A stretch of 8,135 nucleotides of DNA, taken from Candidatus Desantisiibacteriota bacterium. GTDB taxonomy: Bacteria; JACRDZ01. Position numbers and translations under genes: made by a program. Below the pieces are notes generated by a model. The model had not been told where the DNA came from, ran no database searches, and saw only the letters and a list, made by a program, of their open reading frames with translations. Shown here piece after piece: positions 1 to 8,135 of the stretch (the first letter of the stretch is position 1; each line of letters opens with the position of its first letter). The DNA lies in assembly GCA_016209155.1 (NCBI GenBank), contig JACQWU010000029.1, positions 1-8,135 on the forward strand, read 5' to 3'.

Positions 1-1092
1 CAGGCGGTAAAATATGTAAGAGATTTCCAACAGAGAAAAATTCTAATTTTTCTTGCCGGTGAATCAGGCGGAGACAGTGTTACAAAACAGTTAAGAAGAG
101 AAAATATAGAAATAGGGTGGGAAACATATATTGTCCCTCTTGGTCCGGATACAATTTCCACAATTTATGCCCTTAACTTTGCTGCCCGTTCAGCAATTAC
201 CTTCGGAGGTATTAAAGGCGGAGATTTTAAACGTATTTTAAAATATACTATGGAGCGTGTTCACGCATTTGCAATGGGTCTTGGCCCGCTGGATGATTTA
301 AAATGGGCTACAGGCGCGGGGGCTATTAATTTTGGATTCCCTGCAATCTGCGATACGGATGTTCCTGAGATAAGACCTAATGGCGTATGCAAATATGAAG
401 AAGTTGTAAAACAGCTTGATCCTGATAAAATAGTTGATACATGCATAGAAGTGCGCGGAGTAAAAATTGATATAACTCATGTTCCTGTTCCTGTGCCTTA
501 TGGTCCTGCATTTGAAGGAGAAAGAGTAAGGAAAGAAGACACTGTGCTTGAATTCGGCGGGAACAAATCACTCGCTTTTGAATATGTTGTTGGCACAAAG
601 ATGGATTCAATTGATGATAATAAAATAATTTTGGACGGTCCTAAAATAGATGAAAAAGCAGGACTTTATCCTCTTGGAATATATGTTGAAGTTGCCGGAA
701 GAAAAATGCAAAAGGATTTTGAATCCATTCTTGAACGTAAGATTCATCACTTTATCAGTGAAGCGCATGGGATATTCCATATGGGACAGCGTGATATGAA
801 CTGGATTCGTGTAAGCAAAGAAGCGTATGATGCGGGTTTCAGACTTGAACATATAGCTAAAATAATACATGCAAGACTTCATTCTGAATTTCCTGCAATA
901 GTTGATAAAGTACAGATAACGCTTATAACTGATGAAAATAAAATAAAAACAAAAATCGAAGAAGCACGAAAAGCTTATAAAGATCGTGACGAAAGAGTTG
1001 CCGGTTTAACAGACGAAGCAGTTGACACTTTTTATTCCTGCACACTTTGTCAGTCATATGCTCCAAGTCATGTTTGTGTTATCACCCCTTAA
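1..1092 (+). CDS. acsB: Acetyl-CoA synthase (CODH/ACS alpha subunit), upstream part, 5' partial, ends at in-frame TAA
   Basis: Reading frame 1 is open from the first base, so the start lies outside the window. The protein is the catalytic subunit of the bacterial CODH/ACS complex, which makes acetyl-CoA from CO, a methyl group delivered by the corrinoid protein, and CoA in the cytoplasm. By my alignment from memory to the 729-residue Moorella AcsB, codon 1 lies near residue 160. The middle domain is visible (GLGPLDDLKWATGAGAINFG at codons 94-113). The first A-cluster motif CTLCQSYAPSHVC follows, with Cys347, Cys350 and Cys359 (Moorella Cys506, 509, 518) as 4Fe-4S ligands. The frame then meets TAA at codon 364, five codons before the fourth ligand. 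Everything downstream in the same frame is also AcsB, so this is one gene broken by a single codon. A product ending here would lack the fourth cluster ligand and the nickel site and could not be active. Confidence 0.95.
   Translation, partial: QAVKYVRDFQQRKILIFLAGESGGDSVTKQLRRENIEIGWETYIVPLGPDTISTIYALNFAARSAITFGGIKGGDFKRILKYTMERVHAFAMGLGPLDDLKWATGAGAINFGFPAICDTDVPEIRPNGVCKYEEVVKQLDPDKIVDTCIEVRGVKIDITHVPVPVPYGPAFEGERVRKEDTVLEFGGNKSLAFEYVVGTKMDSIDDNKIILDGPKIDEKAGLYPLGIYVEVAGRKMQKDFESILERKIHHFISEAHGIFHMGQRDMNWIRVSKEAYDAGFRLEHIAKIIHARLHSEFPAIVDKVQITLITDENKIKTKIEEARKAYKDRDERVAGLTDEAVDTFYSCTLCQSYAPSHVCVITP
1090..1092 (+). other. In-frame TAA replacing a conserved Glu codon within acsB
   Basis: Seen directly: the frame reads VITP-TAA-RLGLCGAYNW. 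Known AcsB proteins carry Glu here (TPERLGLCG, near Glu523 in Moorella numbering). One G-to-T change at 1090 (GAA to TAA) explains it, with no length change. Sequencing or assembly error, a strain-level nonsense mutation, or a recent pseudogene would all look like this. TAA is neither a selenocysteine nor a pyrrolysine codon, and it serves as the normal stop of the neighbouring acsA and surface-repeat genes. Confidence 0.95.
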
Positions 1093-1686
1093 AGATTGGG
1101 ATTATGCGGAGCATACAACTGGCTTGACGGAAAAGCAGCATTTGAAATTGATCCTCTTGGCAATACCCTTGAAGAAAAATACGGGCAATGGGATGGTGTT
1201 AATAAATTTGTATATGGTAAATCAAATCAGGCTATAGAGAAATTTAATGCTTATTCAATGATAGTTGATCCAATGACATCATGCGGCTGTTTTGAATGTA
1301 TTGTCGGAGTTGTACCTGAAGCAAACGGGGTTATGATTGTAAATCGCGGATTTACAGGAATGACTCCTGTTGGTATGAAATTTTCAACTTTAGCCGGTTC
1401 AGTGGGCGGGGGACTCCCGACTCCCGGATTTATAGGAGTTGGCCGTATTTACATCTCAAGCAAAAAATTTATTTCTGCTGACGGAGGATTAAAAAGACTT
1501 GTATGGATGCCGAAAGAATTAAAAGAAAGCCTGCGCGAAAAGCTTGAGAAAAGAGCTAAAGAAGAAGGCATTCCTGATTTGCTGGATAAAATTGCTGATG
1601 AGACAATTGCTGAAGATGCAGAAAAACTTTTAGAGTTCCTGCAAAAGGTTAATCATCCGGCTCTTACAATGGATCCTATAATGTAG
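1093..1686 (+). CDS. acsB: Acetyl-CoA synthase, downstream part (same gene, after the in-frame stop)
   Basis: This is the C-terminal A-cluster domain of AcsB in the same frame as the part before the stop. It supplies the fourth 4Fe-4S ligand (Cys369, in RLGLCGAYNW) and the Cys-Gly-Cys motif SCGCFECIVG (codons 428-430, Moorella Cys595-Gly596-Cys597) that holds the distal nickel. The loop between them is about 8 residues shorter than in Moorella, and the gene ends at a natural TAG followed by TAA. The total length then matches a full AcsB. A TTG at 1096 could in principle start a 196-residue protein, but no ribosome binding site precedes it and no AcsB is known to begin there, so independent translation is unlikely. 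The absence of any further lesion suggests a very recent mutation or an error. Confidence 0.92.
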   Translation, partial: RLGLCGAYNWLDGKAAFEIDPLGNTLEEKYGQWDGVNKFVYGKSNQAIEKFNAYSMIVDPMTSCGCFECIVGVVPEANGVMIVNRGFTGMTPVGMKFSTLAGSVGGGLPTPGFIGVGRIYISSKKFISADGGLKRLVWMPKELKESLREKLEKRAKEEGIPDLLDKIADETIAEDAEKLLEFLQKVNHPALTMDPIM

Positions 1687-1811: not shown

Positions 1812-3704
1812 ATGAGTAAAGATGAAAGAACTTCAGATCAAAAAGCTTATGATTCTGCTTCGATCAGCATGATAAATAAAGCAAAGGAAGAAAATATTAA
1901 TCTTTCGTGGGATCGCTATGCTTCAGTACAACCGCAATGTACATTTGGAGTAAAAGGACTCTGCTGCCGTTTTTGTAATATGGGGCCATGCCGTTTAAAT
2001 CCAAAAACCGGTGCGGTTAAAGGTGTCTGCGGTGCCGATGCAGATCTCATCGCTGCAAGGACATTGACAAGAAGCGTTGCCGCCGGAACAGCCGCTCATT
2101 CAAACCATGGACTTGAAATGGCATATATATTACTCGATGTAGCGGAAGGCAAGGCAGCAGCTTACAAAATTACAGATGAAACTAAATTAAAACAAGTAGC
2201 ACTTGATATGGAAATACCGATTGAAAGCAGAAGCAAAGAAGAAATAGCAAAAGATGTCGCTCTTGCCGCTATTTCAGATTTTGAAAAAAGCCATACAAAA
2301 CCGCATTTTTTAAAACGTGTAATAGCAAAAAGAATAAAAATATGGGAAAAACTCGGCATTGTTCCAAGAGGTGTTAACGAAGAAATAGTAGAGGCTCTGC
2401 ACCGTACAAATATGGGTATGGGTTCTGATTATAAAGAAATTACAATGGCAGGTATGAGAGTAGCTCTTTCAAACGGCTGGGCAGGATCAATGCTGGCAAC
2501 TGAAATTACAGATATTTTATTCGGCACACCAAAACCCTTGCGCTCCACTGTGAATTTAGGAGTTTTGAAAAAGGATATGGTAAATGTACTAATTCATGGT
2601 CATGAACCGCTTCTTTCAATGGTAATTATAGATGCCGCTGTTGATCCGGAAATAATAAAACTGGCGCTATCTGTCGGTTCAAAAGGAGTTAATATTGCAG
2701 GCATATGCTGTACCGCAAATGAAGCGCTCATGCGTCGCGGTCTTCCGATAGCAGGAAATTTTCTTCAGCAGGAACTGGCTCTTGTAACTGGTGCAGTTGA
2801 AGCTATGGTTGTTGACGTACAATGTATTATGCCGTCACTGCCGGAAATAGCAAAATGCTACCATACTAAAATTATTTCCACTTCACCAAAGGCAGTAGTA
2901 AAAGGTGCAGTCCAAATTATGTTTGATGAGGAACATGCCTATGAAAGAGCCAAAGACATATTAAAAGAAGCAATAAACAATTATAAAAACCGTGATCAGG
3001 CTAAAGTAAATATCCCTGATAAAAAAATGGATCTTGTTGCGGGTTTCAGTCATGAAACAATTAATTACATGCTGGGAGGAACTTTTAGAGGTTCATATAA
3101 TCCGCTCGTAGAAAATATAAAGAACGGTCGTATTAAAGGTGTTGTTGGAATTGTAGGATGTAATAATCCGCGTTTTACATCTGATGCTCCGACAGTTAAA
3201 CTTATACGAACGCTTATAAAAAATGATATCCTTGTTGTTCAAACAGGCTGCGCTGCAATTGCGGCGGCAAAAGAAGGGTTAATGGTGCCGGAAGCAATGG
3301 ATCAGGCAGGTGCGGGATTAAGAGAAGTGTGTGAAGCAGTAGGTATTCCTCCTGTTCTTCATTGCGGCTCATGCGTTGACAACACCCGAATACTTATTGC
3401 ATGTACAGAAATGATAAAACACGGATTGGGTGAAGATTATTCAGATTTACCTGTCGCAGGAGTTGCAATTGAGTGGATGAGCGAGAAGGCTCTTTCAATC
3501 GGGAATTATTTTGTTGCCCAGGGAGCAATGGTTCTTGTAGGTGTTCAGCATCAGGTAACCGGAAGTGATAATATGACAAATTTTTTATATAATGAAATGG
3601 AAAATTTAACCGGCGGAAAATTTGTTTTCGAACCGGACCCTGATAAAGCCGCGCAAATAATAATTGAACACATTAATAAAAAGCGAAAAGCATTGGGAAT
3701 TTAA
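1812..3704 (+). CDS. acsA: Anaerobic carbon monoxide dehydrogenase, CODH/ACS beta subunit
   Basis: This is a 630-residue Ni-Fe-S carbon monoxide dehydrogenase that interconverts CO2 and CO and feeds CO through an internal tunnel to AcsB. Metal ligands can be followed along the chain: Cys43 and Cys51 (D-cluster), Cys52, Cys55, Cys60 and Cys73 (B-cluster), then the C-cluster set His264 (HGHEP), Cys300 (GICCTANE), Cys338, Cys450 (GCNN), Cys480 (TGCAA) and Cys521 (GSCVDN). The proton-transfer lysine is Lys559 (MSEKA) and the histidine-rich stretch AAHSNHG lies at 95-100. The segment before GSCVDN (GIPPVLHCGS) lacks the ~9-residue insertion typical of monofunctional CooS, which favours the ACS-associated AcsA type, as does its position directly behind acsB. 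It is slightly shorter than Moorella AcsA (674 residues), mainly at the N-terminus. No lesion is seen, so CODH should be functional even if AcsB is not. It is probably co-transcribed with acsB and ends at a strong terminator. Confidence 0.97.
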   Translation: MSKDERTSDQKAYDSASISMINKAKEENINLSWDRYASVQPQCTFGVKGLCCRFCNMGPCRLNPKTGAVKGVCGADADLIAARTLTRSVAAGTAAHSNHGLEMAYILLDVAEGKAAAYKITDETKLKQVALDMEIPIESRSKEEIAKDVALAAISDFEKSHTKPHFLKRVIAKRIKIWEKLGIVPRGVNEEIVEALHRTNMGMGSDYKEITMAGMRVALSNGWAGSMLATEITDILFGTPKPLRSTVNLGVLKKDMVNVLIHGHEPLLSMVIIDAAVDPEIIKLALSVGSKGVNIAGICCTANEALMRRGLPIAGNFLQQELALVTGAVEAMVVDVQCIMPSLPEIAKCYHTKIISTSPKAVVKGAVQIMFDEEHAYERAKDILKEAINNYKNRDQAKVNIPDKKMDLVAGFSHETINYMLGGTFRGSYNPLVENIKNGRIKGVVGIVGCNNPRFTSDAPTVKLIRTLIKNDILVVQTGCAAIAAAKEGLMVPEAMDQAGAGLREVCEAVGIPPVLHCGSCVDNTRILIACTEMIKHGLGEDYSDLPVAGVAIEWMSEKALSIGNYFVAQGAMVLVGVQHQVTGSDNMTNFLYNEMENLTGGKFVFEPDPDKAAQIIIEHINKKRKALGI

Positions 3705-3871: not shown

Positions 3872-4399
3872 TTATTTAAATGAAAAATTTACGATCGGCA
3901 AAATGTAATATGGATTCTTACTTCCATTAATATTTATTAAACCGATTTGTAATCCCTCTAAACTATTTGTATTATTCACAAGCCCAAACTGAACACCTTT
4001 AATTTTGTTGGAATAATTATATATTCCTGTTTGTAAACCCAAAAAATCACCTTCTGTAAGATTAACCATACCACCCTGCCAGCCGGTAAAGTTTCCTTTG
4101 GTACGATTTATTATGCTCTCCTGCAAGCCATTAAAATTTCCTTTAACACAATTTGCAAAACCATATTGGATACCTGTAGCATTTCCTTTTACTTTATTAA
4201 CGATACCTATGTCAAGACCTGTGATATTATTATTAACACCATAAATTAAATTTAATCTGACTCCTTCAATTGAGACATCTTCGCTGTAAATTTGAACCGG
4301 ATTAAATAAAGAAAGCTGTATTGGTTTGGTGTCCTCCGCAAAAATTTTTGAACTTCCTATAAGAATTAGTATAGCCAAAATCGAAAACTTTTTTTTCAT
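3872..4399 (-). CDS. Exported repeat protein, LA_2272-type surface repeat family
   Basis: This is a 175-residue protein of unknown function. A signal peptide occupies residues 1-21 (MKKKF, hydrophobic ILAILILIG, likely cut after IFA); there is no lipobox cysteine, so it should be released by signal peptidase I. Residues 46-162 are eight tandem units of 14-15 residues with the pattern G-[LIVW]-Q-x-G-[hydrophobic]-x-N-x-x-x-G-[DN]-[FA]; the first and fourth copies are the most diverged. The C-terminus ILPIVNFSFK is characteristic of the LA_2272 surface repeat proteins first named in Leptospira, which suggests placement at the outer membrane. That family assignment is from memory of the pattern. 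The chosen ATG at 4399 follows a good ribosome binding site; the in-frame ATG at 4414 lies upstream of that site and is rejected. It is transcribed alone, opposite to the acs operon, from its own promoter. Confidence 0.85.
   Translation of the reverse strand: MKKKFSILAILILIGSSKIFAEDTKPIQLSLFNPVQIYSEDVSIEGVRLNLIYGVNNNITGLDIGIVNKVKGNATGIQYGFANCVKGNFNGLQESIINRTKGNFTGWQGGMVNLTEGDFLGLQTGIYNYSNKIKGVQFGLVNNTNSLEGLQIGLININGSKNPYYILPIVNFSFK
3914..4264 (-). repeat. Eight tandem ~45-bp coding repeats
   Basis: Units begin at protein residues 46, 61, 76, 91, 106, 121, 135 and 149: five of 15 residues followed by three of 14. The copies are well diverged in DNA, so the array is old and structurally maintained rather than a freshly slipped microsatellite. 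Confidence 0.8.
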
Positions 4400-4403
4400 G
4401 ATA

Positions 4404-4411
4404 CTTCCTTT
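4404..4411 (-). promoter_or_regulatory. Ribosome binding site fixing the surface-repeat gene start
   Basis: On the minus strand AAAGGAAG ends 4 bases before ATG 4399, with GGA spaced 6 bases from it. It lies downstream of the alternative ATG at 4414, so translation should begin at 4399. Confidence 0.8.
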
Positions 4412-4432
4412 CATTTTAGGTTTATACAGTTG

Positions 4433-4546: not shown

Positions 4547-5422
4547 TCAGTTTTCATTTAAAAAATCTTTTATTAATTTCTTTTCCCCATTTTTATCATA
4601 TTGGTATAATTTGTCTTCGACTTTCATAAATCGTCTGCCATTCCATTTATATATAATTTCCTGTCCCTGGTCAGCCCTCCATGGATCTCGTGTCTTAAAT
4701 AGTAACTCCCCATTAATAGTGCCTTCATTTAATTTCGCCCCGCGTAATGTACCAATATGCTTATATGTTTTACCAGTCTTACCAAAAATGTAAAAATTAC
4801 CACTGTTGTGAGCACCTCTTATATTGTTGTATTTGCTGCGATACTCAGCTTCAATGGATATTATTTCTTCATATTCGCCGATTTTTTGGTGTCTGCGGAG
4901 TATGCTGTCAGCGGCAATTTTTAATAGTGTGTCAGGGTCAGATGGCAGCTCATTTTCCCTTGCTATGAATTCAAAAATCTCTTTATAGGAGGCCAGTGGC
5001 TCAGGTGCTTTTGCGTCTTCAGCGATTTTTTTGTCAATCTCCGCAGAAGGCTCGCCATCTTTAGTAAAAGCTCGTTCCCCGCTTATCGTTCCGTCTTCTC
5101 TGTAATAAATAAACGTTCCGGTAGGTTTCCCCATGCTATAATTACCCTTAACACTTACCTTCCCATTTGGAAACCATGATGTATAGTCACCGTCCGCATA
5201 TCCATTTATTATTTTTTGTTGAAATCTTATCTTCCCATTTTCATGGTATTCCTTTTCAATAATAGTTTTTTGATCAATTATGGAAATAACAGTATTTTTT
5301 GCACCGGATGGATACCGAGATACAATAATTCGTTCATTTTCTTCTGCGTGAATTATCTGCAAGTATCGCAAGGATACAATCAATATAGACAAGCTTATGA
5401 AATATCTAAATAATTTTTTCAT
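4547..5422 (-). CDS. Exported MORN/YwqK-like repeat protein of unknown function
   Basis: A 291-residue protein with an N-terminal signal peptide (MKKLFRYFISLSILIVSL, probable cut after IHA at residue 26) and no lipobox cysteine, so it is likely periplasmic or surface-exposed. Residues about 37-125 contain three or four degenerate ~23-residue units such as YHENGKIRFQQKIINGYADG and WFPNGKVSVKGNYSMGKPTG. This is the aromatic-x-x-N-G-K pattern of MORN-like repeats, also found in proteins annotated as YwqK-family antitoxins. A charged linker (126-145) leads to a C-terminal domain (about 146-291) that I do not recognise, ending in the beta-rich stretch IIYKWNGRRFMKVED. The YwqK label is a similarity name only: no toxin gene is adjacent and the protein is exported, so an antitoxin role is not supported. 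The ribosome binding site before ATG 5422 is weak (GAGAAG). It lies behind its own candidate promoter and 147 bases upstream of the surface-repeat gene on the same strand. Confidence 0.85.
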   Translation of the reverse strand: MKKLFRYFISLSILIVSLRYLQIIHAEENERIIVSRYPSGAKNTVISIIDQKTIIEKEYHENGKIRFQQKIINGYADGDYTSWFPNGKVSVKGNYSMGKPTGTFIYYREDGTISGERAFTKDGEPSAEIDKKIAEDAKAPEPLASYKEIFEFIARENELPSDPDTLLKIAADSILRRHQKIGEYEEIISIEAEYRSKYNNIRGAHNSGNFYIFGKTGKTYKHIGTLRGAKLNEGTINGELLFKTRDPWRADQGQEIIYKWNGRRFMKVEDKLYQYDKNGEKKLIKDFLNEN

Positions 5423-7110: not shown

Positions 7111-8135
7111 AAAGAGATAGTAATTGCGGGAGGCATAAGATCTCCATTTGCAAAATCAGGTACATATTTAAACAATATCTCTGCCTATAATCTTTGCGCT
7201 GTGGTTTTAAAAGAGCTTCTTTATATAACGGGTATTTCCCCGAATGTAATTGATGAGGTCATTATCGGAAATGTTGCCAATCCGCCTGAAGCTATGAATA
7301 TTGCAAGGGTTATAGCTCTTCTTGCGGGATTACCGTATGATATTCCGGCATTTACTGTGCATCGTAATTGTTCTTCAGGAATGCAGGCAATAACAACAGC
7401 TTATGAAAAAATTATGGCAGGGACTGCCGAATTCATTCTTGCCGGCGGGACAGAATCAATGAGTAATATCCCTTTCTATTTTACAAATGAATTGAAGGAA
7501 AAATTTTCAGGCATTTTACGTGCTAAAACTATGATGGAAAAATTCAAGAAAATAATCAGTATCAAACCTCACGATGTTTTACCTGTTATTGGTGTTTTAA
7601 AAGGGCTTACGGATCCCGTTAGTACGCTTAATATGGGACAGACAGCGGAAGTGCTTGCAAAGGAATTTAAGATTCCCAGGAAAGAGCAGGATGAATTTGC
7701 TTTTCTAAGCCATAGAAGAGCGCTTGCATCAATTAAATCGGGAAGATTACAGGAAGAAATAATGCCGATTTATATTCCGCCGGATTACAAACAATTTCTT
7801 GATAAAGATTCCTGTCCGCGCGAGGATACTAATATGGAATCGCTCGGCAAACTTAATCCTGTATTTGATAAAGTAAACGGGACTGTTACAGTAGGTAACT
7901 CCTGTCCTATAACCGATGGCGCCTGCATGCTTGTGGTCACTACCTATGAAAAAGCGCAAAGTATGGGTTTGCCGATAATGGGAATACTTAAAGCATATGC
8001 ATATGCAGGACTTGATCCTAAAAGAATGGGGCTTGGACCTGTATTTGCCATGCATAAATTATTTAAAAAAGAAAAAATGACTTTAAAAGATATTCAATTA
8101 ATTGAGATAAATGAAGCTTTTGCAGCTCAAGTGAT
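7108..8135 (+). CDS. Thiolase (acetyl-CoA acyltransferase, FadI-like), 3' partial
   Basis: The first 342 codons of a thiolase, which either cleaves 3-ketoacyl-CoA with CoA to release acetyl-CoA or condenses two acyl-CoA molecules. The N-terminal MKEIVIAGGIRSPFAKSG is typical. The acyl-carrying nucleophile is Cys88 in RNCSSGMQA, followed by LAGGTESMSN, the segment GLTDPVSTLNMGQTAE that recalls the FadI/FadA2-like branch, GNSCPITDGA (where Ser is more usual than the Cys) and NEAFAAQ at the right edge. The catalytic His (GHP) and second Cys expected about 30-70 residues further on lie beyond the window, so completeness cannot be judged. It is translationally coupled to the PaaK-like ligase upstream. 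Direction (degradation or synthesis) and chain length cannot be told from sequence. Acetoacetyl-CoA thiolase is an alternative, less favoured given the FadI-like middle segment. Confidence 0.92.
   Translation, partial: MKEIVIAGGIRSPFAKSGTYLNNISAYNLCAVVLKELLYITGISPNVIDEVIIGNVANPPEAMNIARVIALLAGLPYDIPAFTVHRNCSSGMQAITTAYEKIMAGTAEFILAGGTESMSNIPFYFTNELKEKFSGILRAKTMMEKFKKIISIKPHDVLPVIGVLKGLTDPVSTLNMGQTAEVLAKEFKIPRKEQDEFAFLSHRRALASIKSGRLQEEIMPIYIPPDYKQFLDKDSCPREDTNMESLGKLNPVFDKVNGTVTVGNSCPITDGACMLVVTTYEKAQSMGLPIMGILKAYAYAGLDPKRMGLGPVFAMHKLFKKEKMTLKDIQLIEINEAFAAQV

Follow-up and report, generated by a model that had tools for sequence, protein, structure and literature searches.

Does the TAA codon that interrupts the acetyl-CoA synthase gene acsB in this bacterial draft genome mark an enzyme that has been lost, one that is still made by read-through, or a wrong base in the consensus? 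The window, the whole stretch of DNA analysed here (8,135 nucleotides), comprises all of contig C263 of the source draft genome G000, an assembly of 3.08 Mb in 352 contigs with 78.8% completeness and 2.3% contamination. No other genome of its family was found among the genomes searched. The gene acsB lies on the plus strand at positions 1-1686 and runs from about codon 160 to its end, its 5′ part being absent at the contig end. It is followed by acsA, encoding the catalytic subunit of CO dehydrogenase (1812-3704, plus strand), which is intact, as the preliminary description of this locus had stated. Beyond the acs genes, two genes on the minus strand encode a VC2662/LA_2272-family surface-repeat protein (3872-4414) and a MORN-repeat protein (4547-5422); after these come a PaaK-like AMP-dependent ligase and a thiolase, the latter truncated by the far end of C263.

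The acsB frame and its single stop codon

Frame 1 of the window encodes AcsB across a stretch of 562 codons, in which a TAA at 1090-1092 (plus strand) is the sole internal stop; AcsB is thus not encoded in one uninterrupted frame. The stop takes the place of residue 364 in the A-cluster ligand segment (1039-1107, plus strand), after the third and before the fourth Fe-S cysteine, leaving Cys347, Cys350 and Cys359 upstream and Cys369 downstream. All four ligands are kept with a spacing of 3-9-10. Sequence comparison also identified a retained Cys-Gly-Cys motif at residues 428-430 (1282-1290, plus strand), which, from family knowledge of acetyl-CoA synthases, we take to be the nickel-binding motif. 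Both flanks of the stop align end to end with one family, and the matches to PF03598 and PF19436 are above their cut-offs. Scored separately against NF040764, the pieces before and after the stop reach 494.9 and 328.1 bits, both below the curated cut-off of 800 bits; read through the stop, the gene scores 845.6 bits and exceeds it. The preliminary description, which had counted about 560 codons of otherwise perfect AcsB carrying every ligand, is borne out by these data.

It had further placed the stop at a conserved Glu and proposed a comparison with acsB of related genomes. The comparison agrees with this placement: Glu, encoded by GAG or GAA, occupies the column of residue 364 in 92 of 92 AcsB rows, drawn from relatives and the genome collection and including at least one record that appears twice. 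The only two rows with another residue at this column belong to remote relatives of 27-30% identity. As GAA is the preferred Glu codon in the source genome (1935 GAA versus 430 GAG), one G-to-T change at position 1090 is enough to produce the TAA. The codon is therefore a single nonsense position within a conserved frame and not chance noise.

Apart from this position, acsB bears no mark of decay. Measured against 131 columns that are conserved to at least 97% in the other 84 AcsB sequences, the gene departs at two, the stop itself and one Gly-to-Ala exchange, and 29% of intact AcsB relatives depart at as many conserved columns or more. Since the loss of conserved residues is not in excess, we reject gene decay of acsB. 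In the source genome acsA, acsC, acsD and fhs all have open frames as well. As acsB has evolved under normal constraint, its stop is either false or very recent.

One gene on two contigs

A feature that the preliminary description did not cover is that acsB is also cut at its 5′ side by the contig end, its first ~115 codons being located on another contig. With the full AcsB of the relative G003 as query, only two places were found in G000: C263, where the gene extends from about codon 160 to its end, and the terminal part of C36, with approximately codons 1-115. Upstream of the C36 fragment, which continues past the end of its contig, lie acsC and acsD, both intact. G003 carries acsD-acsC-acsB-acsA in this order without interruption, and because the fragments on C36 and C263 fit this operon, G000 has a single known acsB, of which ~45 codons have fallen into an assembly gap. 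Besides acsA, one more member of its family was found in G000, a second Prismane/CODH-family gene on C51.

The genome contains the first 400 bases of the window only once, and a contig break induced by a repeat was rejected on these grounds. A break within acsB that involves no repeat fits thin coverage, and low coverage would be its simplest cause.

Gene breaks elsewhere in the assembly

We compared the reliability of the two assemblies by a matched ortholog test, in which open reading frames from 1.2 Mb of G003 were set against 0.72 Mb of G000 together with the window. Seven of 115 orthologous places were disrupted in G000 (five by frameshifts, two by stops); the reverse comparison found all 115 undisrupted in G003. 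In rpoB on C276, a short deletion near position 2769 shifts the frame and removes codons 846-855 of the relative; this is the sole match to the RNA polymerase beta subunit in the genome. In accA, about 20 codons are deleted and the frame is shifted relative to G003 (C51, near 5065-5080), and in nnr, encoding an NAD(P)HX epimerase/dehydratase, a 28-base tandem duplication shifts the frame (C1, near 7349-7390). An rtcB-like gene and recJ are each disrupted by a deletion, mltG contains an in-frame TAA within an A-rich stretch (C280, near 2400), and the stop of acsB in the window is itself one of the seven. Inspection of C36 by eye (6330-8283) additionally revealed an IspD-like frame that passes directly into that of an RlmD/RumA-like methyltransferase, the latter being split again before 6908; these look like more frame or assembly errors.

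A frameshift in rpoB is hardly compatible with life, and a knockout of accA is implausible in such a bacterium. The break of rpoB on C276 is therefore likely a false break of an essential gene and, because loss of both RNA polymerase beta and the alpha subunit of acetyl-CoA carboxylase is implausible, we conclude that the G000 assembly contains false gene breaks. These are no proof against the base at 1090, however, as they are mostly deletions plus one duplication and not single-base changes. Nonsense codons of the substitution type recur as well. When the thresholds of the stop scan were relaxed, G000 yielded one more credible in-frame stop, its third, and convincing genes of G003 yielded none; two further low-threshold matches (queries L147 and L115) were dropped as spurious open reading frames by sequence. 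Together with acsB and mltG, this amounts to three substitution-type stops in ~43,600 codons of G000. About 4.7% of single-base changes in the acsB frame create a stop; if all three stops were errors, their number in 43,600 codons would imply an estimated rate of about one wrong base per 2,000, although the mltG case and the third one could themselves be real.

Origin of the stop codon

On the basis of these results, we consider the TAA to be most probably a wrong base in a consensus of poor quality and not the trace of a lost pathway. The breaks in essential genes and the contig break within acsB itself shift the weight towards a sequencing or assembly error; that base 1090 in particular is wrong is what we infer from them. 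On this reading, acsB is an ordinary gene in an ordinary acsD-acsC-acsB-acsA operon, and its 3′ three quarters lie in the window. The wrong base may stem from sequencing or assembly, or may represent a minority-strain base that entered the consensus, whereas the living population would have a sense codon at residue 364 and make a normal acetyl-CoA synthase.

Second in probability, though rather unlikely, is that a genuine nonsense mutation arose very recently, by which the lineage or the dominant sampled strain would have lost acetyl-CoA synthesis by AcsB, since each fragment retains only part of the A-cluster ligands. One G-to-T exchange would be enough to create it in a genome so rich in GAA, no second acsB was found in the 78.8%-complete assembly, and no genome of the same species contradicts it; the lack of further decay in acsB or in the remaining operon and the error-prone assembly speak against it. 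The preliminary description had also raised the possibility of another acsB copy. A search of the same assembly found none, and we consider it very improbable that the gene is a redundant pseudogene whose intact counterpart lies in the fifth of the genome that the assembly lacks. The incompleteness of the assembly leaves room for such a copy, but the sole N-terminal fragment on C36 and the sole C-terminal one on C263 fit one operon that is contiguous in G003, and relatives with a strong AcsB match have one strong copy each.

Similarly slight is the chance of a genuine TAA at which read-through or recoding yields some full-length AcsB. A precedent exists in the same operon type: acsA of Clostridium autoethanogenum contains an in-frame TGA, confirmed by Sanger sequencing, at which read-through is infrequent (PMC4895105). 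When TAA was put in place of this TGA, however, no full-length product was obtained in either C. autoethanogenum or E. coli (PMC4895105). In the source genome TAA is moreover the commonest terminator (48 of 81 genes checked), no stimulatory RNA structure was detected 3′ of the stop (1085-1165 folds no better than shuffled sequences, z = +1.44), and none of the AcsB relatives has a stop at the column of residue 364. Reassignment of the codon was rejected on account of its frequent use as terminator and because internal stops in convincing orthologs number only three in ~43,600 codons. Most improbable of all would be a TAA fixed in a living Wood-Ljungdahl lineage, with AcsB supplied by ochre read-through or by two polypeptides that rebuild the A-cluster. 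Among the alternatives that the preliminary description had rightly listed, assembly error has thus gained from the falsely broken rpoB and accA and from further such genes, read-through has lost ground, and a recent loss is possible, albeit unproven. Searches for literature on premature stops in acsB, or on assembly errors mistaken for pseudogenes, returned nothing under those exact terms.

If the stop is an artefact, it matters for annotation only. Gene callers split acsB into two pieces below 800 bits plus a third on another contig, so that automatic pathway calling may overlook acetyl-CoA synthase although the genome probably encodes it. The breaks in rpoB and accA likewise warn against trusting other absences and pseudogenes in the G000 assembly. 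If the stop were real, the window would be a snapshot of the loss of the key enzyme of the Wood-Ljungdahl pathway.

The gene in the window resembles known bacterial AcsB of CODH/ACS (PDB 6ytt, 1oao and 1ru3; NF040764) in its full-length similarity, the spacing of the A-cluster cysteines, the Cys-Gly-Cys motif and its context in an operon with acsC, acsD and acsA, and differs from it by the TAA at the conserved Glu and by the division of the gene between two contigs. With acsA of C. autoethanogenum (PMC4895105) it shares an in-frame stop in a key gene of the same operon type with intact flanks. In contrast to that Sanger-confirmed, weakly read-through TGA in acsA, the stop described here is a TAA in acsB, found unconfirmed in a fragmented draft.
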